NCBI RefSeq assembly: GCF_001593605.1
Contig: NZ_CP012836.1
Location: forward strand, 868,001-932,000
Length of the DNA stretch: 64,000 nucleotides
Reading direction: 5' to 3'
Source of the DNA: Algoriphagus sanaruensis
GTDB taxonomy: Bacteria > Bacteroidota > Bacteroidia > Cytophagales > Cyclobacteriaceae
The notes beneath the pieces were generated by a model that worked only from the letters and a program-made list of their open reading frames with translations, did not search any database and was not told the origin of the DNA. The position numbers were made by a program, and so were the translations under genes. Shown here piece by piece: positions 14,401 through 28,457 of this stretch. Every line of letters starts with the position of its first letter. The stretch's first letter is position 1.

Positions 14401-16242
14401 ATGTGTGGAATTGTAGCGTATGTAGGGCAACAAGAGGCTCTACCCATTATTCTAAAAGGACTTAAGCGACTCGAATATCGAGGGTATGATTCAGCCGGGG
14501 TCGCATTGATCGATCAAAAAGGTCTTAGTGTTTATAAAAAGAAAGGTAAAGTCTCCGAACTCGAAAGACATTTGGAAGAAAACGGTAATCTCCTTTCAAA
14601 AATTGGGATTGGTCATACCAGATGGGCCACCCATGGAGAGCCAAATGACGTCAATGCCCACCCCCATTATTCTTCTTCAGAACGTTTTGCAATGATCCAT
14701 AATGGAATAATTGAAAACTATGAGGTTCTGAAGAAGGATTTGCTTCAAAAGGGATATGTGTTTCAAAGTGAGACAGACACTGAAGTATTTGTCAAGTTTA
14801 TTGAGGATATATTCGTAAACAACAACTGTTCACTTGAGGAGGCCTTGAGATTGGCCCTTCAAAAAGTGGTAGGAGCCTATGCGATCGTTTTAATCAATCT
14901 TGAAGAGCCAGATACTTTAATTGCAGCTAGAAAAGGATCCCCTTTGGTTATCGGTGTTGGTGAAGATGAATTTTTCCTAGCTTCAGATGCAACTCCTATC
15001 GTTGAGTATACCAATAAAGTGGTCTATTTGGATGACTACGAAATTGCTGTAATCCGCGACGGCAAACTTCAGGTAAAAACCATTGAAAATATCGAAACCA
15101 GTCCTTATATCGATCAGCTAGAACTTGAACTCGAAGCCATTGAAAAGGGCGGTTTTGAGCATTTCATGCTCAAAGAAATTTATGAGCAACCCAAATCGAT
15201 AGCGGATTGTCTTCGAGGTAGATTGGATCCGAAGTCTGGAAGATTAGTGCTGGGGGGCTTGCGAGATTACATGAATAAGTTCCAAAATGCAGAGCGGATT
15301 ATTATTACCGCCTGTGGGACTTCATGGCATGCAGGCTTGGTCGCAGAATACCTGTTTGAGGAATTTGCAAGGGTACCGGTCGAAGTAGAATATGCGAGTG
15401 AATTCCGCTATCGGAATCCCGTAATTAGTGACAAAGATTTTGTGATTGCTATTTCACAGTCAGGAGAAACGGCAGATACTTTGGCAGCTATTGAATTAGC
15501 GAAATCGAAAGGTGCTACCATTTTTGGTGTGTGTAATGTGGTGGGTTCTTCCATTCCAAGAGCAACACATGCGGGTTCCTACACCCATGCCGGACCTGAA
15601 ATTGGTGTAGCGTCTACCAAAGCGTTTACCGCTCAGATCTCGGTACTAACGATGATGGCACTTAAGCTTGGCTACCAACGCGGGACACTTCCTGAGAGCA
15701 AATATATTTTGATGCTTCATGAATTGGCAGATATTCCCAATAAGGTCGAAAGAGCTCTTCAAACCAATGAAATCGTAAAGTCGATTGCGGAGCAATACAA
15801 AGATGCTAGAAATATGTTATACCTAGGTCGAGGATATAATTTCCCTGTGGCCTTGGAAGGAGCATTGAAATTGAAAGAGATCTCCTATATCCATGCTGAA
15901 GGTTATCCTGCCGCAGAAATGAAGCATGGTCCTATTGCTCTTATCGATGAGGAAATGCCTGTAATTTTCATTGCTACACTTGACAGCTCCTATGAAAAAG
16001 TGGTAAGTAACATTCAAGAAGTAAAAGCGAGAAAAGGAAAGGTGATAGCAGTAGTCACAGAGGGAGATATTCAGGTGAAGGCCTTAGCAGATCATGTGAT
16101 TGAAATTCCTCCTACTAATGAGGCATTTACGCCGCTGTTATCTGTCGTTCCTCTTCAATTATTATCTTATCATATTGCTGTATTGAGGGGTTGCAATGTG
16201 GATCAGCCAAGAAATTTAGCGAAGTCGGTTACGGTGGAATAA
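14401..16242 (+). CDS. glmS: glutamine--fructose-6-phosphate aminotransferase (isomerising)
   Basis: 613 aa, full length. Cys2 of MCGIVAYVG is the glutaminase nucleophile; GHTRWATHG and HNGIIENY complete that domain. Two SIS domains follow (TACGTSWHAGLVAEY; ISQSGETADTLAA; LGRGYNFPVALEGALKLKEISYIHAEGY), and the end QPRNLAKSVTVE is canonical. It makes glucosamine 6-phosphate for cell-wall amino sugars. Its last three codons and stop (16231-16242) coincide with the left end repeat of the mobile element, yet the protein end is intact, so insertion preserved the gene. Confidence 0.98.
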   Translation: MCGIVAYVGQQEALPIILKGLKRLEYRGYDSAGVALIDQKGLSVYKKKGKVSELERHLEENGNLLSKIGIGHTRWATHGEPNDVNAHPHYSSSERFAMIHNGIIENYEVLKKDLLQKGYVFQSETDTEVFVKFIEDIFVNNNCSLEEALRLALQKVVGAYAIVLINLEEPDTLIAARKGSPLVIGVGEDEFFLASDATPIVEYTNKVVYLDDYEIAVIRDGKLQVKTIENIETSPYIDQLELELEAIEKGGFEHFMLKEIYEQPKSIADCLRGRLDPKSGRLVLGGLRDYMNKFQNAERIIITACGTSWHAGLVAEYLFEEFARVPVEVEYASEFRYRNPVISDKDFVIAISQSGETADTLAAIELAKSKGATIFGVCNVVGSSIPRATHAGSYTHAGPEIGVASTKAFTAQISVLTMMALKLGYQRGTLPESKYILMLHELADIPNKVERALQTNEIVKSIAEQYKDARNMLYLGRGYNFPVALEGALKLKEISYIHAEGYPAAEMKHGPIALIDEEMPVIFIATLDSSYEKVVSNIQEVKARKGKVIAVVTEGDIQVKALADHVIEIPPTNEAFTPLLSVVPLQLLSYHIAVLRGCNVDQPRNLAKSVTVE

Positions 16243-16244
16243 TT
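16231..16244. repeat. left end direct repeat (attL core)
   Basis: ACGGTGGAATAATT; bases 16231-16242 are the codons for T-V-E and the stop of glmS. Identical to 26963-26976. Confidence 0.85.
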
Positions 16245-16661
16245 GATTTAGTTCAATTTTCTTACCCCCTAAAATCACTCATAACATTCTCTATATCAAT
16301 AGAAACTACTCATCTTTGGGAATCAAATTATTCCCAATATCAAGATGAAATTTTCACCAAAATAAGGGGTTTAAAAGAACATATTCTTACCCCTTTGGGA
16401 TATCGTTTGATTGCAAAGAAACTGAATGATGAGGGGTATTTGACGCCAGAAAATCATCGGTTTACCAATACCCACGTTTTTTCAATCTATCAAAAAGGAT
16501 TGAAGAGGTTGGAACGGGTAAACCGAATTGATTTTGTGGAATTTTCTGATTTTGAAGTGAGACCTTATAAATCATTTAAAAAGTTTTTTAAGGATTTTCA
16601 GTCCCTAAAAGGGGAAAAAGTTCGGTACTTTTCGTTTTATAAAAATTTAAAATTTTTCTAA
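16245..16661 (+). CDS. recombinase-like HTH fragment at the element's left end, no canonical start
   Basis: The open frame runs from within glmS (TTG at 16191, in another frame) through the left end to 16661. No ATG, GTG or TTG exists in this frame inside the element. The segment HILTPLGYRLIAKKLNDEGYL followed by TNTHVFSIYQKGLKR resembles the helical segment near the C-terminus of serine recombinases, including that of the large recombinase here (YSLEKICEILNKEG). It may be a remnant, use a rare start codon, or be read as an extension of another gene. Bounds are given from the repeat edge; the true start is unknown. Confidence 0.4.
   Translation, partial: DLVQFSYPLKSLITFSISIETTHLWESNYSQYQDEIFTKIRGLKEHILTPLGYRLIAKKLNDEGYLTPENHRFTNTHVFSIYQKGLKRLERVNRIDFVEFSDFEVRPYKSFKKFFKDFQSLKGEKVRYFSFYKNLKFF
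16246..16270. repeat. left inverted arm of the element
   Basis: 25 bp, beginning ATTTAGTTCA. Its reverse complement matches 26925-26949 in 24 of 25 positions. It starts one base inside the 14-bp repeat. Confidence 0.85.
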
Positions 16662-16739
16662 CTGATATTCAGTTAATTAAGAAATTACATCAATTTTCAC
16701 CCCATTTTTTTAACGTTTTCTCTCACTACCTAATATTTA

Positions 16740-16985
16740 TATCTGATATGTAGTGTCCAACAAAGGGTTCAACACTTCACACCCGAAAGGAGTCCATTAG
16801 TATCGGGTCAGAAGTCGGATAGTATTCTGTGGGATTGAAATAACGTCCAAACATAACGGAAGAGGTTTCTCCGATAGTATCGAAAATGGTTCTATTATAA
16901 ATCAGATATGGGTGATTCAAACGAACTGGTCTGAGGAAGTATAGAATTAAAACTCTGAAAAGATTCTAAAAAATCTGTAAGGGGA
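16740..16985 (+). ncRNA. candidate structured RNA or long leader
   Basis: The 324 bases between 16662 and 16985 hold no convincing ORF, but 16750-16885 is less AT-rich and folds locally. GTGT..AAC..GTT..ACAC pairs at 16754-16774, ACCCGA (16781-16786) pairs with TCGGGT (16803-16808), and CGATA-G-TATCG follows near 16875. AT-rich promoter-like DNA (ATATTTATAT at 16733-16742) precedes it. It could be a regulatory RNA, a leader for 17112, or a recombinase accessory site. Identified by eye only. Confidence 0.3.
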
Positions 16986-17111
16986 TTGGTGTATCTAAAC
17001 TTTAATAGTTTATACACTGAGAAGGTATCAAAAATTGATTTTAAGAAGAGATTTCTAAGAATTGATATCCCAAATACCAAAAATCAATTAAACCCATTAA
17101 AACCTATTAAA

Positions 17112-17309
17112 ATGAGAAAACTGAATAAAAAAGAACTCAATTGGATAAAAGATAACTCAGATGAGTTCTTTAAAAATTTGAGAAAGGAATTACTGAAAGT
17201 TGATACTGAAATTCAATTGAGGAAAGATGAATTGAAATCAATAGCAACTAAAAAAGAAAGAATCAAAAGAGTAAGTGAAATAGTAAAATTGGTTATGGAA
17301 AGGAATTAA
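17112..17309 (+). CDS. small hypothetical protein, charged helical
   Basis: 65 aa from the ATG at 17112; a TTG-started frame from 16986 is longer but less likely. The protein is almost entirely charged helix (KKELNWIKDNSDEFFKNL; KDELKSIATKKERIKR). It is the first of three small same-strand genes leading to an excisionase-like protein. Function unknown. Confidence 0.55.
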   Translation: MRKLNKKELNWIKDNSDEFFKNLRKELLKVDTEIQLRKDELKSIATKKERIKRVSEIVKLVMERN

Positions 17310-17323
17310 GAACCGATGGAAAA

Positions 17324-17488
17324 ATGGAAAGAAAGAAAAAGCATCACAGAATTGATGTTGAAGGAATTGAAAGAAGAATCAATGAAGTTTTAAATGGAAT
17401 AGATTCTGAAAAAATGGATGGTGAATCAAAATTCATTTTAAAAAGTGTAACTGATAAAAGGAATAAATATGAACGAAAAAGAAGATAG
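17324..17488 (+). CDS. small hypothetical protein
   Basis: 54 aa, ATG at 17324 to TAG at 17486-17488 (MERKKKHHRIDVEGIERRIN... ending NKYERKRR). Very basic; may bind nucleic acid. It lies 14 bases after the previous gene, and its last 20 bases overlap the start of the HTH gene at 17469, an arrangement typical of translational coupling. Function not recognised. Confidence 0.5.
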   Translation: MERKKKHHRIDVEGIERRINEVLNGIDSEKMDGESKFILKSVTDKRNKYERKRR

Positions 17489-17657
17489 AATACCGAAGAA
17501 AGAGATAATGAAGATGTATGGGATTGATAGAACAACGTTTGAGTTGTGGATTAAAGAAAGAAATCTACCTGTAATTGAAATATCATCTCATTCAAAGTAC
17601 ATCAGAAGAAAGGATTTGATTGATTGGGAGAACAATTTGATAGGGAGTGGTAATTGA
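17469..17657 (+). CDS. excisionase/AlpA-like HTH protein, candidate recombination directionality factor
   Basis: 62 aa with a single MerR-like winged HTH (IPKKEIMKMYGIDRTTFELWIKERNL, then KYIRRKDLIDWENN), the pattern of HTH_17/excisionase proteins. Such small DNA-binding proteins commonly steer integrases towards excision. Serine-integrase RDFs are very diverse, so the role is inferred from fold, size and location in the element. Confidence 0.6.
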   Translation: MNEKEDRIPKKEIMKMYGIDRTTFELWIKERNLPVIEISSHSKYIRRKDLIDWENNLIGSGN

Positions 17658-17807
17658 AATCAATCTATTCTATCAGAATTTAAAATGAATCATAAAATGA
17701 TAGACTTTATCTAACAAATAAATTTTTTATAGATGTGTATAAAACAGTAAAAACTAAATGCTCTGCAGAAAAGAATTCAGATTCAAATTTTCCGTAAATT
17801 CAGAGAT

Positions 17808-17990
17808 ATGAATAAGGAAAATAAACGGTTCAAAAAATCATTGGGGAGCTATACACTCAGAGAATTGGAGGAAAGGGGTTTGATTGAACCCAACCTCCAT
17901 TTGAGTGATGGAAATTACATCGGTGGTCTTACTTCCCCTAAATCCAATGAGTATTGGAAATCTCTTCCTTCGGTAAAAATCAAAAAGTAA
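17808..17990 (+). CDS. small hypothetical protein
   Basis: 60 aa (MNKENKRFKKSLGSYTLREL...; GNYIGGLTSPKSNEYWKSLP). Basic, soluble, not recognised. Its 3' end overlaps the convergent small serine recombinase by 11 bases. About 150 bases before it carry no gene. Confidence 0.5.
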   Translation: MNKENKRFKKSLGSYTLRELEERGLIEPNLHLSDGNYIGGLTSPKSNEYWKSLPSVKIKK

Positions 17991-18597
17991 GGGATAGGGA
18001 TTTTTTCACTTTAGTAACGGTGGATGGTGAAACTGATAATCTTCCACAGATATCTCTAACCGATTTACCCTTTTCCAAAAGGGATTGAATTTGTTTAACC
18101 TTCGGTTTCTGAAGGAACGATTGGAGATTCTCATTACTTCCAACCTTTCTACCCAACTTACCTCCATTGATTACATACATCTTCCTTCCACTTTCGGTTC
18201 TCTCTCTGATTTGTTCTCTTTCCAATTCATAAAGTGAACTCATCACTGAAGTAATCAGATTCCAAATTGGATTCTTCTTTCCATCAATATGTGATTGAAG
18301 ATTACCCATACCTCTCACTACCACATTCACACCCATTTCTTCCAACCATTGGAGATTGGTAAGAACATCTACAGTATTTCTACCCAACCTCGATAATTCT
18401 TCCACCACCACAGTTTCCACTTCACCTTTTTGAATAAGTTCCACTAATACTTTTCCTTTTTCCCTTTCCTTAAATGGAACTTTACCACTTACCCCTTTAT
18501 CAAAGAGGGTTAATTCATACTTCTCCGAATCCAACTTATATCTCTCCCCACTCTGATTGATGGTGGAGGTTCGGTTGTACTTCACTTTCATACCCAT
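17980..18597 (-). CDS. small serine recombinase (resolvase/invertase family)
   Basis: 205 aa. The catalytic serine is Ser11 in YNRTSTINQ, aligned with Ser10 of gamma-delta resolvase. Next come DKGVSGKVPFKER, VVVEELSRLGRNTVDVL and the long helix E region (YELEREQIRERTESGRKMY), then a C-terminal HTH (KSVRDICGRLSVSPSTVTKVKK). Length and domain order match resolvases/invertases. It may resolve multimers, invert a segment or be a second mobility enzyme; no paired inversion sites were seen. It is the only recombinase here on the minus strand. Confidence 0.88.
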   Translation of the reverse strand: MGMKVKYNRTSTINQSGERYKLDSEKYELTLFDKGVSGKVPFKEREKGKVLVELIQKGEVETVVVEELSRLGRNTVDVLTNLQWLEEMGVNVVVRGMGNLQSHIDGKKNPIWNLITSVMSSLYELEREQIRERTESGRKMYVINGGKLGRKVGSNENLQSFLQKPKVKQIQSLLEKGKSVRDICGRLSVSPSTVTKVKKSLSLTF

Positions 18598-18952
18598 AGT
18601 GTTTCTGTTTTTCTTTCAGATTTAATTTAACCAAAATGGGGATGATTTCCAACTAGAAAATTAGCGAAGATGTTATCATTTTTATTGTGAATTATTGGGT
18701 AACGAAGAAGGAATCATCAAATGGCACCTACTTTACCTATTTCTTTTGGGAAAACCGATTCGCAGAATTTACTTTCGTTTCAGATTGAAAAATTCTCAAA
18801 GAGAAGGTGACTTTGATTTTTGTTGGTGAGGGGAGGAATTGGGTGAAATTCCTCCTCATTTTTTTTTCTTACTTCCAAAGAGAGGTGGTTTTTAGACCTT
18901 TTGAATTAGTGAATTTTCTGACCTATTTTGAATCAAAGAAAAACAATCAGAT
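18598..18952. other. 355-base region without a confident gene
   Basis: It contains the divergent upstream regions of the small recombinase and the MORN protein. A 29-codon frame at 18721-18810 (starting MAPTLPISFGKT) is preceded by AAGGAA about 8 bases upstream and followed by a terminator at 18832-18867. A tiny plus-strand transcript ending there is possible, but coding evidence is weak. Confidence 0.5.
18832..18867 (+). terminator. intrinsic terminator in the element
   Basis: GGAGGAATT, a 6-base loop, AATTCCTCC, then TCATTTTTTTTT. Its strand implies a plus-strand transcript ending here although no confident gene precedes it. Confidence 0.75.
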
Positions 18953-20482
18953 ATGAAAAAGATAAACACATTCGGAATAGGTTCATTTACAACCCTATTG
19001 ATTTTGGTTGTTATGGGAATTCCACTTTGGGTTTATTTTTTTGGTGATGGGAGTTTACCTTCAATTAAGTATCTGTTTTTCTCCTTCATCCTTTTTGGGG
19101 TAATTCTCCTATTGATTATTTCAAACCTTAAACTTATAGCAGATTTTTACAATTCTTTATCCGATGTGGATATTAAACCTACTTCACCAAAGGAAAAGAA
19201 AACTGAGGAGGGAATTAAGGATGGACTTTTTGAGGAATTCTATCCTAATGGGAATTTGAAATTTTTAGGAAACTATTTTGATGGAAAAAGAGAGGGTGAA
19301 TGGAAAGAATATTTTGATAATGGAATTCTGAGGGAAAAAGGAAATTACTCTAAGGGAAAGAAAGATGGGGTTTTTCAGATTTTTGAAATTGGAGGAGAAA
19401 AAGTTGGAGAATTAGTTTTTAAAAATGGTGTATTAAAGGAAAGTAACCAATTCAAAAACAACCTCCTTCACGGAATCCAAAAGTACTATGATAATGATGG
19501 AATTTTACTTAGAACCTTAACCTGTGAAGATGGGGAAATCATTGATGGGTTATGGGAATCATACTATGAATATGGTCAATTAAAGAAAAAGGGAAATTAT
19601 CAAAATGGAAAAAGGGAGGGTCTTTGGGAATCCTACCACCAAAATGGTCAATTGAGAGATAAAGGAAATTATCTCAACGATAAAAGAGATGGATTGTGGG
19701 AATCCTACCACCAAAATGGTCAATTGAGAGATAAAGGAAATTATCTCAACGATAAAAGAGATGGATTGTGGGAATACTACCACGAAAATGGTCAATTAGA
19801 GGAAAGAGGAAATTATCTTAATGGATTGAGGAATGGTTATTTTGAATCCTATAATCAAAACGGACAATTGAGAGAAAGAGGGAGTTATATCGACAGTAAA
19901 AAGGCGGATGGATTATGGGAATCATACGATGAAAATGGTCACATATCCGAAAAGGGAAATTATCAAAATGGAAAAAGGGAAGGTCTTTGGGAATCCTATC
20001 ACCGTAAAGGTCAGTTATACCAAAAACGAAATTATCATAATGGATTGGAAGAAGGTCTTTGGGAATCCTATTTCGAAAATAGTCACATATCCGAAAAGGG
20101 AAATTATCAAAATGGAAAAAGGGAAGGTCTTTGGGAATCCTACAACTATTTAGGTCAGTTATATGGAAAAGGAAATTATCTCAACAATGGAAAGGAGGGT
20201 ATTTGGGAATATTTTGATAATGAAAAGGGTTTAGTTAGAACCGTAATCTATAAAAATGGAAGTGTAATTGATGGACTTTGGAAATCCACTGACGATGAAT
20301 TCGATTTTGGATATGAAACTGGAAATTATGTTAATGGATTGAGGGAAGGTCTTTGGGAATCCTACAACCATTTAGGTCAGTTAGTTGAGACAAAAAATTA
20401 TCATAAAGGGAAAATTCAATGGTCAATAAATTATTTTTTCTCACGGATTAAGCAAAAAATCACCTCCATATTTTCGTCTTAG
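18953..20482 (+). CDS. two-TM MORN-repeat (YwqK-like) protein
   Basis: 509 aa. Two N-terminal membrane spans (about residues 13-32 and 41-63) anchor a long array of roughly 23-24-residue repeats with the pattern WESYxxNGQLxxKGNYxNGKREGL, at least ten copies. This is the MORN variant of YwqK-family proteins. Two adjacent copies are identical at DNA level, so the array has been copied recently. The repeats should face the cytoplasm or periplasm depending on topology, which is unclear. Known MORN proteins bind lipids or proteins; the role here is unknown. Own terminator at 20500-20530. Confidence 0.85.
   Translation: MKKINTFGIGSFTTLLILVVMGIPLWVYFFGDGSLPSIKYLFFSFILFGVILLLIISNLKLIADFYNSLSDVDIKPTSPKEKKTEEGIKDGLFEEFYPNGNLKFLGNYFDGKREGEWKEYFDNGILREKGNYSKGKKDGVFQIFEIGGEKVGELVFKNGVLKESNQFKNNLLHGIQKYYDNDGILLRTLTCEDGEIIDGLWESYYEYGQLKKKGNYQNGKREGLWESYHQNGQLRDKGNYLNDKRDGLWESYHQNGQLRDKGNYLNDKRDGLWEYYHENGQLEERGNYLNGLRNGYFESYNQNGQLRERGSYIDSKKADGLWESYDENGHISEKGNYQNGKREGLWESYHRKGQLYQKRNYHNGLEEGLWESYFENSHISEKGNYQNGKREGLWESYNYLGQLYGKGNYLNNGKEGIWEYFDNEKGLVRTVIYKNGSVIDGLWKSTDDEFDFGYETGNYVNGLREGLWESYNHLGQLVETKNYHKGKIQWSINYFFSRIKQKITSIFSS
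19557..20370 (+). repeat. MORN-coding tandem repeat array, 72-bp exact units inside
   Basis: Units start GGGAATCCTAC at 19626 and 19698, with a diverged third copy at 19770; the period is 72 bases (24 codons). A second longer-range identity links about 19940-20000 with 20083-20140. Confidence 0.85.
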
Positions 20483-20499
20483 GAAAAGGAAAATGAATG

Positions 20500-20530
20500 A
20501 AAAACCACCTCTTTTTGGGAGGTGGTTTTT
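20500..20530 (+). terminator. intrinsic terminator after the MORN gene
   Basis: AAAACCACCTC, a 7-base loop, GAGGTGGTTTTT, about 18 bases after the stop codon. Confidence 0.85.
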
Positions 20531-20663
20531 CATTTTAGGGGAGTCCATTCATACCCCTTTCATTTTTTCTGAATTGATATTAAAAAATATGTGTCATTTT
20601 TCATCACCCAATTTTACTCAGTTACATATTTCACTTATGGGGTAATAGAAATACCTTCATTCA

Positions 20664-20849
20664 GTGTCAAACGAATTAAGAATCAGAATCACCCATTTTC
20701 TACTTCTTATCAATTTATTCGGTTGTAACCTTCTGAATACTGAAAAAACTATCATTGATGATGGTGAGGGAATCCGATTCACCTTCGATGATGGATTGAA
20801 TGATGACCCACGTTTCAGATTACCAAAAGATGAAAATGGGTTCTATTAA
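20664..20849 (+). pseudogene. 5' part of an interrupted lipoprotein gene
   Basis: 61 codons from a GTG. A lipoprotein signal (HFLLLINLFGC, lipobox LFGC) is followed by a short exported region ending DENGFY and a TAA. The next three bases are an ATG in the same frame, and the protein continues (20850-21302) with no gap. The simplest reading is one lipoprotein gene split by a nonsense codon; termination-reinitiation at TAAATG is the alternative. Function unknown. Confidence 0.6.
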
Positions 20850-21302
20850 ATGAATTTGACCAAAAGTGGTCAAAATCCTCAACGGATTTCTGTCAGATTA
20901 TTAAGGGGAGATGAGGTAGTTGAGACAAAATCAATGGGTAGAAGGAGTTATATCTATTGGAGTAATAATCTCTATTGGTGGTTGAGAGAAGGAGATACGG
21001 TTGCAAACATCACCAAAACCTACTTTAATCCATTTACGGGAGAAATCCAATACGTAAATCTTCCTCCTTTGATAAATTGGAAAGATGTTATTGTACCTAC
21101 CATCAATTCGGTATCAATTACAAACGATGTAACTGGAAGAGGAAGTACAGTGATTGGTCCAATTGGAGAAATGAAGGGAGATACGATGACAGTTTATGTA
21201 AAATATTCCCACGTAATCAGTAAGTGGACGGAGGGTTCATCTTTCTTCACACCATTAGGAGAAAAAGAAATAATTGATTCAATAAAAATAATACTTAAAT
21301 AA
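20850..21302 (+). CDS. 3' part of the interrupted lipoprotein gene, or separate ORF
   Basis: 150 aa, in the same frame as 20664-20849 and starting right after its stop. There is no signal peptide of its own, which fits a body domain separated from its export signal. Recognisable text includes SNNLYWWLREGDTVANITKTYFNPFTG and LPPLINWKDVIVPTINS, which looks like a conserved secreted domain. As a separate product it would stay in the cytoplasm. Confidence 0.6.
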   Translation: MNLTKSGQNPQRISVRLLRGDEVVETKSMGRRSYIYWSNNLYWWLREGDTVANITKTYFNPFTGEIQYVNLPPLINWKDVIVPTINSVSITNDVTGRGSTVIGPIGEMKGDTMTVYVKYSHVISKWTEGSSFFTPLGEKEIIDSIKIILK

Positions 21303-21308
21303 AACGTT

Positions 21309-21803
21309 ATGAAAAAAAGTTATTCATTAATACTATTGTTAGGAATGATAGTATTGTCTACTTCTTGTACAGATTATGAGAAAACAATATCCACTGATGA
21401 TTTAACAAAGGGGAGTTGGTATATGGAGAATTCTGAATTAGAAAAAAGATTAGATAATTATATGGAATCAAGAGGAATGTATGATAATGTTTATAGAGAA
21501 TTGCAATTTATTGGGGATGGAAAGTCTGGTTCCGTAAATTATTATGAAACAGTTAGTGGAAATCAAAGTTGTCGTTCAGAAGGTAGGTACCTAGCAGATG
21601 CTAGTAGTGGGACTTTAAAAATTACTATTTCTGGTTTAGAAAATTCTTATTGTTCTTACGTAAAAGAACTAAATGGAGAATATAAATACAAATATATGTT
21701 AATGGGTGATATAGACCCAAAATATAATGAACTTTATTCTGGTAAAAAAACCTTAACCATCTCTAAAGGAGGACAAATATTATTTCAGAAAGATAAAAAA
21801 TAA
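21309..21803 (+). CDS. small lipoprotein
   Basis: 164 aa with a clear lipoprotein signal (MKKSYSLILLLGMIVLSTSC). The mature part, starting near CTDYEKTISTDDLTKGSWY, resembles small lipocalin-like domains that test for solute or measure envelope state, but is not recognised. It lies 6 bases after the previous gene, so co-transcription is likely. Confidence 0.7.
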   Translation: MKKSYSLILLLGMIVLSTSCTDYEKTISTDDLTKGSWYMENSELEKRLDNYMESRGMYDNVYRELQFIGDGKSGSVNYYETVSGNQSCRSEGRYLADASSGTLKITISGLENSYCSYVKELNGEYKYKYMLMGDIDPKYNELYSGKKTLTISKGGQILFQKDKK

Positions 21804-21810
21804 AATTATT

Positions 21811-22098
21811 ATGAAAAAATCAATTAAAAATTGTTCCTTTTTTATTTTGTTATGTTGTTTTATTTTTTCCTGTGGAAAAAATTCAAACAATAATACTACA
21901 ACAAATAGTTCATCAGACCCTTGTGAAGATATGAGGAGTTATAATGCTGGTGTTCAATATGGAAAAGACGATAAAGGTGGTTCTAGGATTTCTGGACTCC
22001 CAACCTCTACTTGTGAAGGAATACTTAATTATTATGACGATAACTATAATAAGGATTGTTTTTGCAAAGGGTTTTATAAAGGTCAATCTGAAGGTTAA
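21811..22098 (+). CDS. small cysteine-containing lipoprotein (paralogue 1)
   Basis: 95 aa. Signal SFFILLCCFIFSC with lipobox, an Asn/Ser/Thr linker, then a small domain with PCEDMRSYNAGVQYG and DCFCKGFYKG. It shares PC(E/D)DM..SYN.GV and DC(F/Y)CKG with 22401-22664, so the two are paralogues. Four cysteines in the mature domain suggest disulfides. Lies 7 bases after the previous gene. Confidence 0.68.
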   Translation: MKKSIKNCSFFILLCCFIFSCGKNSNNNTTTNSSSDPCEDMRSYNAGVQYGKDDKGGSRISGLPTSTCEGILNYYDDNYNKDCFCKGFYKGQSEG

Positions 22099-22112
22099 TT
22101 TATTGAAAAAGT

Positions 22113-22373
22113 ATGAATGTGAATATTAAATGTATCAAATGTAATGAGATTCTTACTTTTGCTACGATGACAAAGCAATCAATGAAACAAAGTGTAAAAC
22201 AATCTTTTGATTGGAAAGTAATGCTCGGATTAAAGAAAATAGAGTGGGTTCCAACCTGTGAACAATGTAATTCTAGTGGGAAAGAAAATTTTTGTTGTCC
22301 TGAATGTGGGAGTAGTCAAATTTGGACAGAGGATATATTGAAAACAGGAAATTTGATTCATAAATGTAAATAA
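22113..22373 (+). CDS. zinc-ribbon protein
   Basis: 86 aa, cytoplasmic by sequence. Cysteine pairs CIKC, CEQC, CPEC and a final HKCK suggest two zinc ribbons separated by a Met/Gln/Lys-rich helix. It sits between the two paralogous lipoproteins on the same strand. Function unknown. Confidence 0.62.
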   Translation: MNVNIKCIKCNEILTFATMTKQSMKQSVKQSFDWKVMLGLKKIEWVPTCEQCNSSGKENFCCPECGSSQIWTEDILKTGNLIHKCK

Positions 22374-22400
22374 TTAAATTTAATAAAATATAAAAATGTT

Positions 22401-22664
22401 ATGAGAAGAATATTAGTTATTATTTTGATTTCCATGTTTGTTTATTCATGTGGAGGTAATAGTTCAAAGGAAAGTAGTGAAACTTACCAAGAGTCTTCCA
22501 GCCCCTGTGATGATATGGTTTCATACAATAGAGGGGTAAATACTGGTAGAGCAAATAAAAATCTTTGGGCTGATTGTAATTATTTTTGGGAACTCGATAA
22601 TGATGGAAATATGTCCAAAGATTGTTATTGCAAAGGATATGAAACAATTAAAAAAGAGTTATAA
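22401..22664 (+). CDS. small cysteine-containing lipoprotein (paralogue 2)
   Basis: 87 aa. Signal ILVIILISMFVYSC, a Ser/Glu-rich linker, then PCDDMVSYNRGVNTG and DCYCKGYE, matching 21811-22098. Same strand and spacing as the rest of the small-lipoprotein cluster. Likely surface- or periplasm-exposed; function unknown. Confidence 0.68.
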   Translation: MRRILVIILISMFVYSCGGNSSKESSETYQESSSPCDDMVSYNRGVNTGRANKNLWADCNYFWELDNDGNMSKDCYCKGYETIKKEL

Positions 22665-22726
22665 ATTCATCTAATTTTCATCTGTTAACAAATTACATTA
22701 ATTAATTTTTTTATAATTTGACTTTA

Positions 22727-22771
22727 TGTAACGGATTGACTAATTTTTAACAAATTAGTCAATCCGTTACA
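22727..22771. repeat. perfect 20-bp inverted repeat with 5-base loop
   Basis: TGTAACGGATTGACTAATTT at 22727-22746 is exactly reversed at 22752-22771, around TTAAC. It lies between convergent genes. The stem is AT-rich and no U-run follows, so it is not a typical terminator. Confidence 0.75.
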
Positions 22772-22807
22772 TTTATTATCCCAATTTTACTGCTCAATTT
22801 TCTCTTT

Positions 22808-23116
22808 TTAAATTCGAATGAGTTCATCAAAACATACCCCTTCAAATGAATCCAATACTTCACCTAATTTGGTGAGGATATGAACCCTATAATAATCATC
22901 CCAACCCAACGTAATCAGTACCCATCCACAATGGTGATGTCCGTTCACTTTTAACATCAATCCCTTTCCTTCTACATCAAAGATTCTTTCAACTCCCCAA
23001 CTGAGAAAAATGGATGGATTACTCTTCAGAATGGAGAGAGTTTCATTTGAATCAAACTTATCCATTACCAATTTCATCACACTTTCCTTCAACATAAGTT
23101 TCTGTTTCATAATCAT
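22808..23116 (-). CDS. hypothetical protein
   Basis: 102 aa; ATG at 23116 or 23110. The segment KGLMLKVNGHHHCGWVLITLGWDDYYRVH looks like a small beta-rich domain with a His/Cys cluster. No signal peptide. Convergent with the lipoprotein cluster and divergent from the coiled-coil gene. Not recognised. Confidence 0.6.
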   Translation of the reverse strand: MIMKQKLMLKESVMKLVMDKFDSNETLSILKSNPSIFLSWGVERIFDVEGKGLMLKVNGHHHCGWVLITLGWDDYYRVHILTKLGEVLDSFEGVCFDELIRI

Positions 23117-23240
23117 TTAACACATTTCGTTTTACTCTTTAATTTACGATTAAAGAGGCTGAATATCAAGTAATTACAATCCATTTCTCTTCTTTTCTAC
23201 TTTCTGATATTTATATGAGTAATCATTAAAGTGGAATAGA

Positions 23241-23777
23241 ATGAAAAGAACAGAATTGAAGGAATTAATCAGAGAGATACTTCTCTCCGAATTCCAAAGG
23301 AATAAAGATGTTGAATCCAAAATCAATGAATTTGGAGAACTCAACGATGAAATTGATAGAGTAAAAAACCAATTGGAAGGACTAAGAAAAAGATACTCTC
23401 AGTTGGAGGATGAATTAAGACCGATATTGGAGAACCTCTATCAGTTCAATCAAAAATCGGTTCAAACCGAACGGTATTTGGTATCCATTAAACGGATGGG
23501 ATATGAGAAAACCAATTACCGATATAAGGAGGTATTTGAGGAGAGTTTGGATAAAGTGAATAAGAATACGAGGATGATATTGGAGAACCTCTTAGAATCA
23601 ACCAAAACACTCTCAAAGGTGGTTTCTTCTATTGGAGTTCAATCCATTGGAGAAAACTTCTTCAGAAATATGGTTCAAAAAATCAAAGGGGTATTCCAAA
23701 TGATTTTCCCTCAACTCAAATCCACTCAAACTGAAATGGATAACCTTCAGAGGATATCCAAAATGATGATGAAATAA
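23241..23777 (+). CDS. coiled-coil hypothetical protein
   Basis: 178 aa. A basic N-terminus (MKRTELKELIREILLSEF) leads into a strong coiled coil at about residues 23-75 (heptads of L/I in NDEIDRVKNQLEGLRKRYSQLEDEL), then a helical C-terminal half. The opening resembles leader segments seen in some phage proteins, but no phage genes are nearby. Function unknown. Followed by a terminator. Confidence 0.65.
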   Translation: MKRTELKELIREILLSEFQRNKDVESKINEFGELNDEIDRVKNQLEGLRKRYSQLEDELRPILENLYQFNQKSVQTERYLVSIKRMGYEKTNYRYKEVFEESLDKVNKNTRMILENLLESTKTLSKVVSSIGVQSIGENFFRNMVQKIKGVFQMIFPQLKSTQTEMDNLQRISKMMMK

Positions 23778-23802
23778 CTTTCCACTTTTCCATATATACT
23801 TT

Positions 23803-23835
23803 GAACCCCATCCAAATCGGTTGGGGTTCTTTTTT
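23803..23835 (+). terminator. intrinsic terminator, copy 1
   Basis: GAACCCCA (23803-23810), then TGGGGTTC (23822-23829) and TTTTTT. Part of a 48-bp sequence duplicated at 24875-24922. Confidence 0.8.
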
Positions 23836-23861
23836 GGAGGAGGTTTTTTGTAATTGAGAGA
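23814..23861. repeat. 48-bp intergenic direct repeat, copy 1
   Basis: Matches 24875-24922 in 46 of 48 positions. It spans the right arm of a terminator and about 25 bases beyond, and brackets the BspA-like gene. Confidence 0.8.
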
Positions 23862-23983
23862 ATCTGATTATGAAAAGTGAAATTGAGGATTCTTGAAATC
23901 TCGGTAATGAAAAAGGAAATGAGAAGATTTTTGAGAAGAATCCATTTCAGATTAAATTCCTGTATTTAAAGGATAGATAAACA

Positions 23984-24835
23984 ATGGATGATAAAAACAA
24001 CCCAAATTCTGGAAATCCCAGAATTTTCATAGATACCAATGGAATAACAGTCAAATGTGAAAACTGTGTGGTTGGATACAAAGAAATTCTCAACGGAATT
24101 GAGTATGAGGTTGTGGATAATGATTTGATTAGGAAAAGGAGAGATGAGGGAGTCGATATGACTAAACTCTGTACTTCTTTAGTTACTGATATGAGTTGGT
24201 TGTTCTTTTTTTCTGTATTCAATTATCCAGAAAATGATTGGGATTTTGAAAATCTTATGAGGTGGATGGACACAATTCCCGAATTCAATCAATCTATAGG
24301 GAACTGGGACGTAAGTAATGTCACGAAAATGACCAGTATGTTTAAAGGTTCCTCTTTCAATCAACCAGTTGAGAACTGGGATGTAAGTAAGGTTATCAAT
24401 ATGAGTGGTATGTTTGAAGATTCTTCGTTTAATCAATCCATTGGAAAATGGGATGTAAGTAATGTTACCGATATGAGTGGTATGTTCTCAGGTTCCTTTT
24501 TTAATCAATCTATTGGAAAATGGGATGTAAGTAATGTGATTTATATGACTCGGATGTTCAATGGTTCCCCTTTCAATCAACCTATTGAAACTTGGAATGT
24601 AAGCAAGGTCACTGATATGAGTTTAATGTTCGAAGGGTCCAAATTCAACCAACCCATTGGAAATTGGGATGTAGGTTTGGTTACAGATATGAGTTTAATG
24701 TTTGAAGATTCCAAATTCAATCAGAATATCTCTAAATGGTGTGTATCTAAAATTCCAACTGAACCAATCGGTTTCTCAAAAAATTCTCCTCTAACTGAAC
24801 AAAACAAACCCCAATGGGGAACTTGTCCTGAATAA
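23984..24835 (+). CDS. BspA-like leucine-rich/DUF285 repeat protein
   Basis: 283 aa. After an N-terminal region (GITVKCENCVVGYKEILNGIEYE) come about seven repeats of roughly 24-25 residues with the pattern FNQ.IG.WDVS.VTDMS.MF, the DUF285/BspA-like signature. These form an extended solenoid typical of surface proteins, but no signal peptide is visible, so export is uncertain. Bracketed by the duplicated 48-bp intergenic sequence. No partner is obvious. Confidence 0.82.
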   Translation: MDDKNNPNSGNPRIFIDTNGITVKCENCVVGYKEILNGIEYEVVDNDLIRKRRDEGVDMTKLCTSLVTDMSWLFFFSVFNYPENDWDFENLMRWMDTIPEFNQSIGNWDVSNVTKMTSMFKGSSFNQPVENWDVSKVINMSGMFEDSSFNQSIGKWDVSNVTDMSGMFSGSFFNQSIGKWDVSNVIYMTRMFNGSPFNQPIETWNVSKVTDMSLMFEGSKFNQPIGNWDVGLVTDMSLMFEDSKFNQNISKWCVSKIPTEPIGFSKNSPLTEQNKPQWGTCPE

Positions 24836-24861
24836 TTACTTTTCAAATTCCGAAAAAAAAT

Positions 24862-24896
24862 GAACCCCAATCTTAAATCGGTTGGGGTTCATTTTT
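24862..24896 (+). terminator. intrinsic terminator, copy 2
   Basis: GAACCCCAA (24862-24870) pairs with TTGGGGTTC (24882-24890), then ATTTTT. Follows the BspA-like gene. Confidence 0.8.
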
Positions 24897-24922
24897 GGAG
24901 GAGGTTTTTTGTAACTGAGAGA
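24875..24922. repeat. 48-bp intergenic direct repeat, copy 2
   Basis: 46 of 48 positions match 23814-23861. The remaining bases up to 25057 hold no gene and carry the upstream region of the large recombinase. Confidence 0.8.
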
Positions 24923-25057
24923 TTTGGATTTTGCGAAATGAGTAAGAAGGTGGTTTTTATATCGGAGATAAAATTTTTCTCGTATGGAAAAAATTTCCAT
25001 CTGACTTAAAAGATTCTCAATTAAATTGAGTAAGAATAATCACCAAATCATTTTGCT

Positions 25058-26947
25058 ATGACTAAATCAATTAACCAGATTGGGCTTCTATTTAGGGTTT
25101 CATCTAAACCTCAGGAAACTGATGGTGGTGGACTGGAAGTTCAGAAGAGATTGGGTTTGGAAATTGCAAATAGACTTCAATTAGAACCTATTGAATTTAA
25201 TGAAGGAGTTCAATCCTCCTTCAAAGTTGAAATAAACCAAAGACCCAAATTGGTTGAACTTTTGGATGAAATTCAGAAACCCAATGGAATCAGAAAAGTA
25301 TGGGTGTTCAATACCGATAGATTGGGTAGGTATTCGAATTCGTGGTACTCAATATTAAAGGTCTTTATCGATTATGGGGTTGAGATATACATTGGTGAGG
25401 ATTTAAATCCCTATGATTTATCTAGTTCAGTTGATAAACTAACAATCAATATTCTTTCTTCAATTTCTCAATATGATAATGAGTTAAGAAGAATGAGGTC
25501 AGTTTTGGGAAAAAGAAATTCCCTAAAAAATGGAAATACCTATGTTGGAGGTACGGTTCCTTTCGGATATACGGTTGAAGGAAAGAATTTGGTTATTCAC
25601 CCTACAGAATCAAAGTATATCAAAAAGATGTATGAGATGTACAGTGAAGGAAAATCACCGATGGAAATTAAGGTTTTCTTAGACCATCAAACTGAAGTGA
25701 ATCCGAGAAGGAGTGTTAAGGGATGGAATGTAGGTACTATACTTTCAATGTTGAAGAAAGAAATCTACAAAGGTGTTCAGATTTGGGAGTGGAAAGAAAA
25801 ACTTCCTAATGGAGAGGAAGAAATTGTAGAATCCTTTGAACTTAAAGTTCCTCCAATTATTAATGAGAACTTTTGGAATGAGGTACAAGAAAAAATTCAA
25901 AACCACTATCCTCTCCAATTTGATGGAAAGAGTAGGAAATCACTTTTAAAGGGGTTGTTAATTTGTCCTAAATGTAAGTTAAGGTTGGGACATCGGTTTA
26001 AAACCAATAACCATTACTATGGAAAATGTAGTGAAGATAATTGGAGAAAAGTTGGAAAGAAGAATGACCTAAAAAGTTGTCCAATAAAAAAGAGTCCTCG
26101 AATGGAAGTATTGGATGAAAAAATAATTGATTCGGTAATTGAAGTAATTAAAAATTCCAAAAGGAAAAGAGAGGATTACAAAATCAAAAACCTTCAAACA
26201 AAATTCGATGAAGTAGAAAATATAAGGTTGCAAAAATCCACTTTAGAAAGGAAAATTAGGGGTAAGAATTCTGAACTATCCAAAATTGAAGAACAGGAAA
26301 TTCAGATAGAATTTGATATCAGAATTGGAAATTTAACAGAGAAGAAGGGTGAGCTCCTCAAAAAGAAATTCGGTGAACACATCCAAGTTTTGAAGGAAGA
26401 AATTGAAAATTTAAAAGGAGAATTAGAAGTGTTTTCCAATTCTAAAGGTTGGATAGATTGGCTAGAAAAAATGAATGAGGAAATTGAAAAGTTAAAAACT
26501 CAATCATTGGAGAAAAAACGAGAATTCCTTTTTAGTGTCCTCAAAGAGATTCAAATTATTTATGACCAAAAGAAACAATCCCATAAGATTGATATTAAGT
26601 TTTTACTTCCACTGGTTGGGGATTCTATCCTCTATAATGTTGAAAGAGACGATAATGGATTTAAAACCTATAATCTAAAGGAAGGAAGTACAGTTTATGA
26701 AATGGAAGTTGATTCCTTTGTTCCAAACAACTCAAAAGACCAATCTTATAAGGGGGAATTGGTTCAGAGAATTGTAGAACTGAAAGAGATTGAAGGATAC
26801 TCTTTGGAAAAGATTTGTGAGATTCTAAATAAAGAAGGTAAGAAACCAATAGGGGGTGGTATTTGGTATAAAAGTAGGGTTTCCTCGTTCTATAGTTACA
26901 ATAGAAAACTCCTCCCAAAGGTGGAGGGGGTAAGAAAAATGAACTAA
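25058..26947 (+). CDS. large serine recombinase (integrase)
   Basis: 629 aa. N-terminal catalytic domain: Ser15 in LLFRVSSKPQ, VWVFNTDRLGRYSNSW, and the helix E region NILSSISQYDNELRRMRS. Recombinase domain: GGTVPFGYTVEGKNLVIHPTES and a KGVQIWEWKEK segment. Zinc-ribbon: CPKC near residue 308, then further Cys at GKCSEDN and SCPIKK. A coiled coil follows at about residues 375-480. This is the usual order for large serine integrases that recombine attP with attB. Its TAA lies inside the right inverted arm, 15 bases before the right repeat, so gene and att site overlap. Confidence 0.95.
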   Translation: MTKSINQIGLLFRVSSKPQETDGGGLEVQKRLGLEIANRLQLEPIEFNEGVQSSFKVEINQRPKLVELLDEIQKPNGIRKVWVFNTDRLGRYSNSWYSILKVFIDYGVEIYIGEDLNPYDLSSSVDKLTINILSSISQYDNELRRMRSVLGKRNSLKNGNTYVGGTVPFGYTVEGKNLVIHPTESKYIKKMYEMYSEGKSPMEIKVFLDHQTEVNPRRSVKGWNVGTILSMLKKEIYKGVQIWEWKEKLPNGEEEIVESFELKVPPIINENFWNEVQEKIQNHYPLQFDGKSRKSLLKGLLICPKCKLRLGHRFKTNNHYYGKCSEDNWRKVGKKNDLKSCPIKKSPRMEVLDEKIIDSVIEVIKNSKRKREDYKIKNLQTKFDEVENIRLQKSTLERKIRGKNSELSKIEEQEIQIEFDIRIGNLTEKKGELLKKKFGEHIQVLKEEIENLKGELEVFSNSKGWIDWLEKMNEEIEKLKTQSLEKKREFLFSVLKEIQIIYDQKKQSHKIDIKFLLPLVGDSILYNVERDDNGFKTYNLKEGSTVYEMEVDSFVPNNSKDQSYKGELVQRIVELKEIEGYSLEKICEILNKEGKKPIGGGIWYKSRVSSFYSYNRKLLPKVEGVRKMN

Positions 26948-26949
26948 AT
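26925..26949. repeat. right inverted arm of the element
   Basis: 25 bp ending GAACTAAAT; reverse complement of 16246-16270 with one mismatch. It includes the last codons and stop of the recombinase gene. Confidence 0.85.
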
Positions 26950-26962
26950 GGAGTTCAGATTA

Positions 26963-26976
26963 ACGGTGGAATAATT
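26963..26976. repeat. right end direct repeat (attR core)
   Basis: ACGGTGGAATAATT, identical to the glmS-end copy; presumably the displaced original glmS tail. Host sequence resumes at 26977. Confidence 0.85.
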
Positions 26977-27004
26977 ATCGAAAAATTGTCTTTGATTGGA
27001 AGAG

Positions 27005-27036
27005 GCTGTCTGACTATTTGTTGGACAGCTTTTTTA
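27005..27036 (+). terminator. probable native glmS terminator, displaced by the element
   Basis: GCTGTC (27005-27010) pairs with GACAGC (27024-27029) followed by a T-run. It lies about 29 bases after the right repeat, where a terminator of uninterrupted glmS would sit. The convergent Kazal gene ends inside it. Confidence 0.75.
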
Positions 27037-27383: not shown

Positions 27384-28457
27384 ATGCTTGACAAATTACA
27401 AGCCTTAAAAGAGCGTTTTGAAGAAGTAGGTCAGCTCATCATTTTACCGGACTCCATGTCCGATATGTCAAAATATGCCAAACTGACCAAGGAGTACAAA
27501 GATCTTGAGAAAATCGTAGGTGTTTTTGATACCTACATGCTAGTTCTTAAAAATATTGATAGCTCCAAGCAAATCCTTGAAAAGGAAAAAGATCCTGAAT
27601 TTCGCGAAATGGCGAAAATGGAATTGGATGATCTTGCCGAACAAAAAGTAACCTTGGAGGAGGAACTTAAGCAACTGTTAATACCTAAAGATCCCAATGA
27701 TTCAAAAGATTGTATTCTTGAGGTGAGAGCAGGAACAGGGGGGGATGAAGCTGCCATTTTTGCTGGTGACTTGTTCCGAATGTATGAACGATTCTGCGAA
27801 ATGCAGGGCTGGAAACTGACTGTTTTGGACTTGACTTTTGGTTCGGCTGGAGGATACAAAGAAATCATTGCTACTGTTTCAGGTGCAGACGTATACGGCA
27901 TGCTCAAATATGAATCTGGGGTTCACCGAGTTCAACGAGTTCCTGCTACCGAATCTCAGGGGCGAGTTCATACTTCTGCTGCCTCAGTGGCGGTACTTCC
28001 TGAAATGGACGAAGTAGAAGTTCATTTGGACATGAATGATATTCGGAAAGATACCTTTTGCTCCTCCGGTCCTGGGGGACAATCCGTGAATACTACCTAT
28101 TCGGCAGTTCGTCTTACTCACCTTCCATCTGGTCTTGTAGTGACTTGTCAGGATGAAAAATCTCAAATTAAGAACTTTGAGAAAGCATTGAAAGTATTGA
28201 GATCGAGACTCTATGAGATTGAACTGGCTAAGCATAACGAAGCTGTAGGCGCTCAAAGAAAATCAATGGTCGCAAGTGGAGACCGATCTGATAAAATCAG
28301 AACCTACAATTATCCTCAATCGAGAGTGACGGATCACAGAATCAATAAAACGGTCTATAATTTACCTGAAGTGATGGATGGACATGTAGAAGAATTTATT
28401 TCTGCCTTGAGATTAGCTGAAAATCTTGAAAAACTTCAAGCAGGAGGAATAGAATAG
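27384..28457 (+). CDS. prfA: peptide chain release factor 1
   Basis: 357 aa. The GGQ peptidyl-hydrolysis motif (SSGPGGQSVNT) is near residue 230, and the stop-codon recognition region has RVPATESQGRVHTSAASV, whose P-A-T is the RF1-type tripeptide. It ends translation at UAA and UAG. Length and domain order are normal. It follows a Bacteroidota promoter box and is separate from the Kazal gene on the other strand. Confidence 0.97.
   Translation: MLDKLQALKERFEEVGQLIILPDSMSDMSKYAKLTKEYKDLEKIVGVFDTYMLVLKNIDSSKQILEKEKDPEFREMAKMELDDLAEQKVTLEEELKQLLIPKDPNDSKDCILEVRAGTGGDEAAIFAGDLFRMYERFCEMQGWKLTVLDLTFGSAGGYKEIIATVSGADVYGMLKYESGVHRVQRVPATESQGRVHTSAASVAVLPEMDEVEVHLDMNDIRKDTFCSSGPGGQSVNTTYSAVRLTHLPSGLVVTCQDEKSQIKNFEKALKVLRSRLYEIELAKHNEAVGAQRKSMVASGDRSDKIRTYNYPQSRVTDHRINKTVYNLPEVMDGHVEEFISALRLAENLEKLQAGGIE

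Follow-up and report, generated by a model that had tools for sequence, protein, structure and literature searches.

A glmS-targeting serine-integrase island of Algoriphagus sanaruensis with a recombinase reading frame that probably crosses its attachment site

A 64,000-nucleotide stretch of the chromosome of Algoriphagus sanaruensis (NZ_CP012836.1; genome of 3.88 Mb in one contig), hereafter the window, has glmS and prfA separated by an AT-rich island of 10.7 kb. The results are best explained, with good probability, by a serine-integrase island that targets glmS, in which the recombinase reading frame crosses the attachment site attP and integration parts a C-terminal domain from the enzyme, with -1 frameshifting probably employed in the clade to which the integrase belongs (the window clade). 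Judged from sequence comparison, the insertion, the empty site, the conservation of the ends and a continuous frame across attP are established; frameshifting, the role of a hairpin at attP and the function of the domain are what we infer. A preliminary description of this DNA recognized the island without noticing that the coding frame of the recombinase itself contains the attachment site.

The island and its insertion into glmS

Both ends of the island consist of the 14-bp direct repeat ACGGTGGAATAATT, located on the plus strand at 16231-16244 (attL) and 26963-26976 (attR). Just inside lie inverted arms at 16246-16270 and 26925-26949 (both plus strand) in which 24 of 25 positions pair, the left corresponding to the P' half of attP and the right, which overlaps the integrase stop codon, to the P half. 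The target gene is glmS (14401-16242, plus strand; TIGR01135, E 7.7e-249), the last codons and stop of which are carried by the direct repeat. The GC content was 29-36% in all eleven 1-kb segments from 16 to 27 kb and mostly 38-46% in the flanks. A terminator-like hairpin followed by T's was recognized by eye right of the second repeat (~27001-27035, plus strand) and recovered in the computed fold. Since terminator-like hairpins are located directly 3' of glmS in several congeners (by eye, e.g. L041, L048 and L060), the hairpin is interpreted as the glmS terminator displaced by the island. The right flank is prfA (27384-28457, plus strand), which is the neighbor of glmS in empty sites. No tRNA was found within the window. 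The repeat, the arms, the AT-richer interior and the native terminator moved to the far side had all been proposed in the preliminary description and were borne out, as was a large serine recombinase at one end.

That recombinase is a large serine integrase of 629 amino acids (25058-26947, plus strand) with N-terminal Resolvase (E 1.6e-15) and Recombinase (E 1.4e-18) domains that exceed the Pfam cut-offs, and a sub-threshold match to a zinc ribbon (PF13408; 22.3 bits against a cut-off of 25.3). It matched the A118 chain (E 1.9e-11) and the TP901-1 chain (E 2e-5), and two long helices in the predicted structure were read as a putative coiled coil. A search of the protein database identified 235 relatives at E<=0.001 from 7998 scored candidates; the 120 listed were 45-88% identical and none exceeded 682 residues, the two longest (P0023 and P0101) being extended N-terminally. 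Scanning 84,980 genomes with two peptide patterns revealed 23 loci, six of them close (46-72% identity): metagenome-assembled genomes (MAGs) of Algoriphagus, Spirosoma, Chitinophagaceae and Lutibacter, Maribacter sp. ACAM166, and a bin labelled Woesearchaeota. No close window-clade integrase beyond the window's own was found in 295 genomes of the family, where 41 matched at all and none except the own exceeded 34% identity, or in 395 genomes of the phylum, where only one passed E 1e-60. Integrase and alignment scans of viral contigs revealed no relative, and plasmids and phages yielded distant integrases alone, less than 30% identical among the matches listed.

In order to locate the empty site, 30 loci were fetched from 55 congener genomes with a match, one being the window's own. 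In 25 of the remaining 29 loci prfA was found within ~1.5 kb behind glmS with no island between them; two other contigs stop 60 and 99 bp past glmS, and two have no prfA in the ~1.5-kb stretch. The gap between glmS and prfA, measured in 14 congeners, was 136-1305 bp (372-394 bp in eight). An arm and a glmS-like tail were present directly behind the integrase in all six close relatives. The glmS gene was located in four of the six genomes, and in three (L085, L086 and L087, not L088) the left arm and the leftmost open reading frame (ORF) of the element stand directly behind it. The preliminary description had named a lack of any empty-site allele and a lack of conserved ends as grounds for refutation, and it passed both tests. 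It had also proposed that the island reached the glmS end with its own integrase by a chemistry other than that of Tn7, a proposal which the integrase, the empty sites and the conserved ends support. The Woesearchaeota-labelled bin (L065, L088) contains a window-clade element together with a distant glmS (48% identity) without it, and is probably mixed; an archaeal origin of L065 was considered and rejected on taking the bin as mixed.

When the ends were joined, the arms were symmetric about the A^C step of the repeat at 25 of 30 positions in the window, 20 in Maribacter and 21 in Chitinophagaceae, with 14-15 for the next-best axis. The A^C axis held in three of four joined or natural attP sites, while in L066, which has a short arm, other axes scored equal to or above it. 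In L061 the bases right of AC depart from the usual element sequence. On the basis of the arm symmetry and these base differences, crossover is predicted at AC (16231-16232), and the remainder of the repeat would therefore be a glmS tail carried by the element that rebuilds the last codons. Thus, the insertion appears to lie within the last glmS codons with the island supplying the last bases, and the target gene is predicted to stay intact.

A reading frame across attP

The left ORF (16233-16661, plus strand) is predicted to encode a recombinase extension domain with a helix-turn-helix and weak similarity to PF07508. Joining the ends places this frame at -1 relative to the integrase, and in all five loci compared it runs through the repeat without a stop. 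No ATG, GTG or TTG occurs between repeat and domain in the window, the first candidate start being codon 54; an ATG or GTG is present there in L087 only, and L066 has none. The domain is conserved in an alignment of 22 sequences, and the ratio of nonsynonymous to synonymous change (pN/pS) across the five loci, computed from sequence pairs that are not independent, was 0.43 and 0.34 in two segments of the domain and 0.74 just behind the arm. The structural model (predicted local distance difference test, pLDDT, 75; predicted template modelling score, pTM, 0.49) comprises a strand pair followed by helices.

Importantly, the natural Lutibacter contig L066 has the extension domain directly behind the integrase, in the -1 frame. 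Integrase, att site and left ORF stand together at 3900-4300 of this contig, and in the same genome a left end additionally adjoins glmS (L087); the contig represents either tandem elements or a circle, and no exact terminal overlap was found on it. The database proteins listed for the left ORF number 26, the window's own included. Six run upstream into glmS sequence, and seven have another upstream sequence that is provisionally taken as the integrase side, five by motifs that resemble the sequences behind the integrases, from a list written after viewing the proteins, and two by guess; the others start later or were left unclassed, with P0144 visibly opening with glmS sequence. A profile of the extension domain matched 11 of the 120 listed window-clade integrases (E about 1e-5), and the eight matches listed all fell at the C-terminal domain of the integrase itself; the extension may therefore be a second copy of that domain in the window clade. 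A degraded sequence resembling the left ORF was also seen by eye behind glmS at L056, perhaps an old insertion.

The end of the integrase gene contains an in-phase slippery heptamer, CCCAAAG (26914-26920, plus strand), 6 nt before GGGGTAAG of the right arm. A heptamer of the type X_XXY_YYZ is in phase at the integrase end in all seven right ends (CCCAAAG in six, GGGAAAG in L066), always 6 nt from GG(G/A)GTAAG of the arm, and the stop follows immediately in five and one codon later in L065. Such a heptamer, placed 0 or 3 nt ahead of the stop, was found in 12 of 341 ORFs of at least 120 codons taken from 25 sources; six of these are the close relatives, leaving a background of 6/335. None of 16 distant integrases checked (17 found) has a heptamer before the stop. 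The protein ends are equally uniform, with 116 of the 120 listed integrases terminating in PK, GK or KK followed by 0-2 residues. The exceptions are P0001 and P0023, in which PK occurs at a more internal position, and P0035 and P0043, which have different ends. Judged from the protein sequences alone, the KK endings would fit an AAAAAAG heptamer. In a test of heptamers in E. coli, CCCAAAG, GGGAAAG and AAAAAAG were reported to be the most efficient with stimulators, CCCAAAG reaching 54% with the IS3 pseudoknot (PMC4066793).

The RNA past the heptamer of the joined attP folds at -38.9 kcal/mol in the window (z -6.8 versus base shuffles), -37.0 in Maribacter (z -6.0) and -26.7 in Chitinophagaceae (z -4.5). 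Three of the attR controls gave z values of -0.4 (L063), -2.1 (L064) and 0.6 (L061). Since a palindromic attP forms a hairpin in any case, a regulatory role for this structure is something that we infer.

Further evidence was obtained from a second integrase clade, 30% identical to the first, with att copies at the same AC of glmS. In this clade a single ORF of natural sequence continues across attP without a change of frame and encodes a homologous domain beyond it. A database query with the joined integrase and domain of this clade retrieved 302 proteins from 7999 scored candidates. Profile and pattern assigned the 120 listed to 18 with the domain, 69 with a tail of antisense glmS and 33 with neither, the last being fragments, tails in other frames and outgroups. 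The longest contig was 6,823 bp for the 18 long forms and 2.55 Mb for the 69 tailed forms, and contigs longer than 10 kb accounted for none of the 18 and 28 of the 69 (Fisher p 4.4e-4). Since long and tailed forms were both found, both predicted states of the gene exist in nature. Of the listed matches that carry a name, the nearest is a partial protein from Olleya marilimosa (P0147), with 99% identity over 83% of the query. The preliminary description had proposed that glmS ends are a safe harbor reached by unrelated routes, an idea strengthened by the position of the second clade's att copies at the same AC.

Two observations concern the surroundings of this clade. The G799 island (L101 9970-11427; G799:C1:1434674-1450928) contains an unrecombined attP copy in inverted orientation with the element ends repeated exactly (1253 bp and 462 bp), adjoining a small serine recombinase and, by eye, a type I restriction-like gene. 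L046, a congener of the window, has at its contig end ~55 nt directly behind glmS that nearly match the sequence separating glmS from the G1093-type integrase (L099).

Proposed mechanism and alternative explanations

In the proposed mechanism, the integrase would recombine attP with attB in the last glmS codons, crossing over at AC, and the P' side of attP would bring a copy of the last glmS bases, so that glmS would stay intact. The circle would produce recombinase with the extra C-terminal helix-turn-helix domain, most likely yielding both short and long enzyme. In the window clade translation would probably enter the domain through a programmed -1 frameshift at CCCAAAG, aided by a hairpin that the arms form only when joined; in the second clade the domain is simply in frame. 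Integration would part the domain from the integrase gene and strand it at the other end of the island. The long form would favor integration and its loss would help to lock the integrated state, the island being held until a directionality factor, or the full-length enzyme from an incoming circle, acts. It is further proposed, with opinion evenly balanced for and against, that the recombinase senses circularity, the arms serving at once as half-sites, frameshift hairpin and linker codons; integration would then destroy hairpin and linker and thereby change the enzyme.

Several observations weigh against this interpretation. A circular form of the window's element was not observed, and a frame of 57 nt is open by chance in 21-28% of shuffles. 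The repeat, arm and linker gave a pN/pS of 1.23 over 19 codons, indicating no constraint at the protein level, and a fold search of the extension-domain model against the PDB returned nothing better than E 0.24. The likeness to the integrase's own C-terminal domain suggests that the extension may be partly redundant in the window clade. The zero-frame stop of the window's integrase lies nine codons past the heptamer. The natural junctions fold more weakly than the joined ends, with -17.9 kcal/mol for L066 (z -1.1) and -19.7 for L065 (z 0.0, not significant), and two attR controls that include a chromosomal hairpin are themselves structured (window, -27.0 kcal/mol, z -2.8; L062, -31.5, z -4.5). 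In the second clade, contig ranks of long and tailed forms did not differ (Mann-Whitney p 0.25). To these are added the start codons at the integrase stop in three of the seven right ends, and the window's open frame and a slippery sequence within glmS, considered below with the explanations that they favor.

One such explanation is that the extra domain is a separate protein made from the circle by termination and re-initiation at the integrase stop, with attP still lying between the two. A right-frame ATG overlaps or follows the stop in L064, L065 and L066 and would be usable for re-initiation, and gene callers start at such an ATG in P0128 and P0130. However, such an ATG is missing from the window, L061, L062 and L063, all seven right ends retain the heptamer even where CCC is replaced by GGG, and the domain of the second clade is in frame with its integrase; re-initiation is considered unlikely. 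The left ORF could otherwise be active in the integrated state, either as a directionality factor with its start codon in glmS or, through a frameshift at the glmS end, as an extension of GlmS. It stands directly behind glmS with the native terminator displaced, its frame in the window is open upstream to a TTG at 16191 inside glmS, L087 has an in-frame ATG near the repeat, and P0144 joins glmS sequence to the domain. Moreover, an in-phase A_AAT_TTA is located 31 nt before the glmS end in three of four element-bearing loci (window, L086 and L087). Against these, stops interrupt the -1 frame over the final 63 nt of glmS in L085, L086 and L087, the open path to the TTG in the window lacks conservation, and A_AAT_TTA is absent from L085. 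Of 16 congener glmS tails checked, four contain AAATTTG, which the codons for RNL permit. The domain of the second clade is encoded at the element end distant from glmS and shares the reading frame of its integrase. Because of the TTG at 16191 and the A_AAT_TTA, a role in the integrated state retains some probability, albeit a low one.

Least probable, and by our estimate very much so, is an ordinary island in which the left ORF is an idle recombinase fragment left from an earlier insertion at the same site. The site is indeed re-used, as seen from junctions or remnants at L065 and L066 and from the second clade at the same place, and the similarity of the left ORF to PF07508 is weak and partial. 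An idle fragment is at odds with the finding that the left ORF is at the same distance from the repeat and in the same frame in five of five loci, is under purifying selection, and is kept in 25 further database proteins. A recombinase frame that crosses attP is the explanation preferred here.

Other contents of the island and relation to known systems

Behind the left ORF is a candidate for a conserved structured non-coding RNA (16706-17010, plus strand); its alignment with the Maribacter element (L085:4430-4744) spans 323 columns, 210 of them identical. The consensus fold has 62 pairs, with 10 one-sided and 8 two-sided changes and none broken, and a z of -7.9 versus column shuffles for the two sequences, each of which alone folds no better than shuffles. 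Rfam gave no match at gathering scores, the L085 sequence none up to E 1 and the window stretch two plastid matches at chance level. A covariance model recovered the two founders (one under two locus names) and one match at E 0.38. A DNA search of 395 Bacteroidota genomes found the RNA in the own genome alone, no plasmid matched, and an exact 20-base pattern was absent from the viral contigs.

A helix-turn-helix ORF of 62 amino acids (17469-17657, plus strand) resembles HTH_17 (E 2.2e-5; 25 bits versus a cut-off of 27), and as a guess could be the directionality factor. It is followed by a small serine recombinase identified with Pfam (17980-18597, minus strand), with relatives in L064 (75% identity), L094 (78%) and L101 (37%). 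The L094 element, of Maribacter, encodes a type I restriction-modification set (by eye), a HEPN protein and a ParB-methylase. The cargo of the island comprises a MORN_2 repeat protein (18953-20482, plus strand; E 9.8e-50), small proteins (21309-22664, plus strand), three of which, those without a Pfam family, have signal- or lipoprotein-like starts by eye, and a DUF285 repeat protein (23984-24835, plus strand; E 3.9e-72). A 99-nt repeat, 76% alike between its copies at 23814-23912 and 24875-24973, precedes the DUF285 gene and the integrase and is perhaps a shared regulatory sequence. Within the cargo region, two 21-bp arms form a perfect inverted repeat around a loop of 5 nt (22726-22772).

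No relaxase, transfer or Tns protein was found among the 13 island ORFs scanned with Pfam, smaller ORFs not all being included, in agreement with the absence of Tn7 genes stated in the preliminary description. An integrative and conjugative or mobilizable element (ICE or IME) was considered and rejected, no transfer gene being present among the ORFs scanned. The sole hint of TnsD was a sub-threshold helix-turn-helix match on the small recombinase (16 bits versus 32.4). PADLOC called no defence system among ten island ORFs, with weak matches to DruC (E 2.5e-5, a coiled-coil-like ORF) and mad1 (E 1.2e-4, the 62-residue helix-turn-helix ORF).

The island's integrase has in common with the large serine integrases of A118, TP901-1, phiC31 and Bxb1 the Resolvase and Recombinase domains, the chain matches, the helices read as a coiled coil, and attP half-sites symmetric about a dinucleotide; it differs in the extra C-terminal domain, the frame across attP, the probable frameshift and the target at the glmS end. 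Staphylococcal cassette chromosome (SCC) elements likewise occupy a site at the 3' end of a housekeeping gene (rlmH) and carry varied cargo. Their CcrA and CcrB are also serine recombinases, although of a different subfamily and targeting rlmH rather than glmS; CcrB was the second NCBIfam match of the integrase (E 4.3e-21, score 75 versus a cut-off of 900). We know of no attP-spanning frame in SCC cassettes. The main text of a catalogue of thousands of large serine integrases contains no mention of glmS (PMC10083194). Tn7 shares the glmS 3' end as its target and reaches it with TnsABC and TnsD instead of a serine integrase; it is described as inserting downstream of the glmS coding region (PMC4046053), whereas the island inserts within the last codons.

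The closest parallel for a divided integrase gene is the suicidal integrases of SSV1, pTN3 and pT26-2, in which the att site lies within the integrase gene and integration divides it (PMC8371274). The att site is likewise within the integrase frame here, in frame in the second clade and in the -1 frame only in the window clade. Self-splitting integrases are called exclusively archaeal in a 2021 review, and those are tyrosine recombinases (PMC8371274), whereas the island enzymes are serine recombinases of Bacteroidota from which the terminal domain alone is cut off. The complete gene of the suicidal integrases is reported to act as a directionality factor (PMC8371274), the parallel drawn for the mechanism proposed here. 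In mycobacteriophage BPs, attP is inside the repressor gene and integration shortens the repressor (PMC4557955); in the island the gene shortened is the recombinase. The -1 frameshifting of IS3 and IS911 employs the same class of heptamer and a downstream RNA structure (PMC4066793), unlike the island in that the stimulating hairpin of the latter would exist only with the ends joined. In ICEKp1 integrase expression differs between the integrated and excised states through a promoter switch (PMC13023037), whereas in the island the protein itself would change. The frameshift site described in PMC5506516 lies in tail genes. Each of the ingredients is known, and their combination in serine integrases was not found in open-access full text.

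The direction of serine integrases is usually attributed to separate directionality factors. If the proposal of circularity sensing is true, the switch in direction would reside within the structure of the gene and need no separate factor. Two clades of natural integrases appear to alter their own C-terminus on integrating, so that the contribution of this end becomes directly open to test. Within the reach of the searches, this would be the first self-splitting integrase other than the tyrosine enzymes of archaea, and perhaps also the first case of a frameshift signal governed by DNA topology. Overall, the glmS end is a repeated site of serine integrases in Bacteroidota, and may serve for insertion tools.

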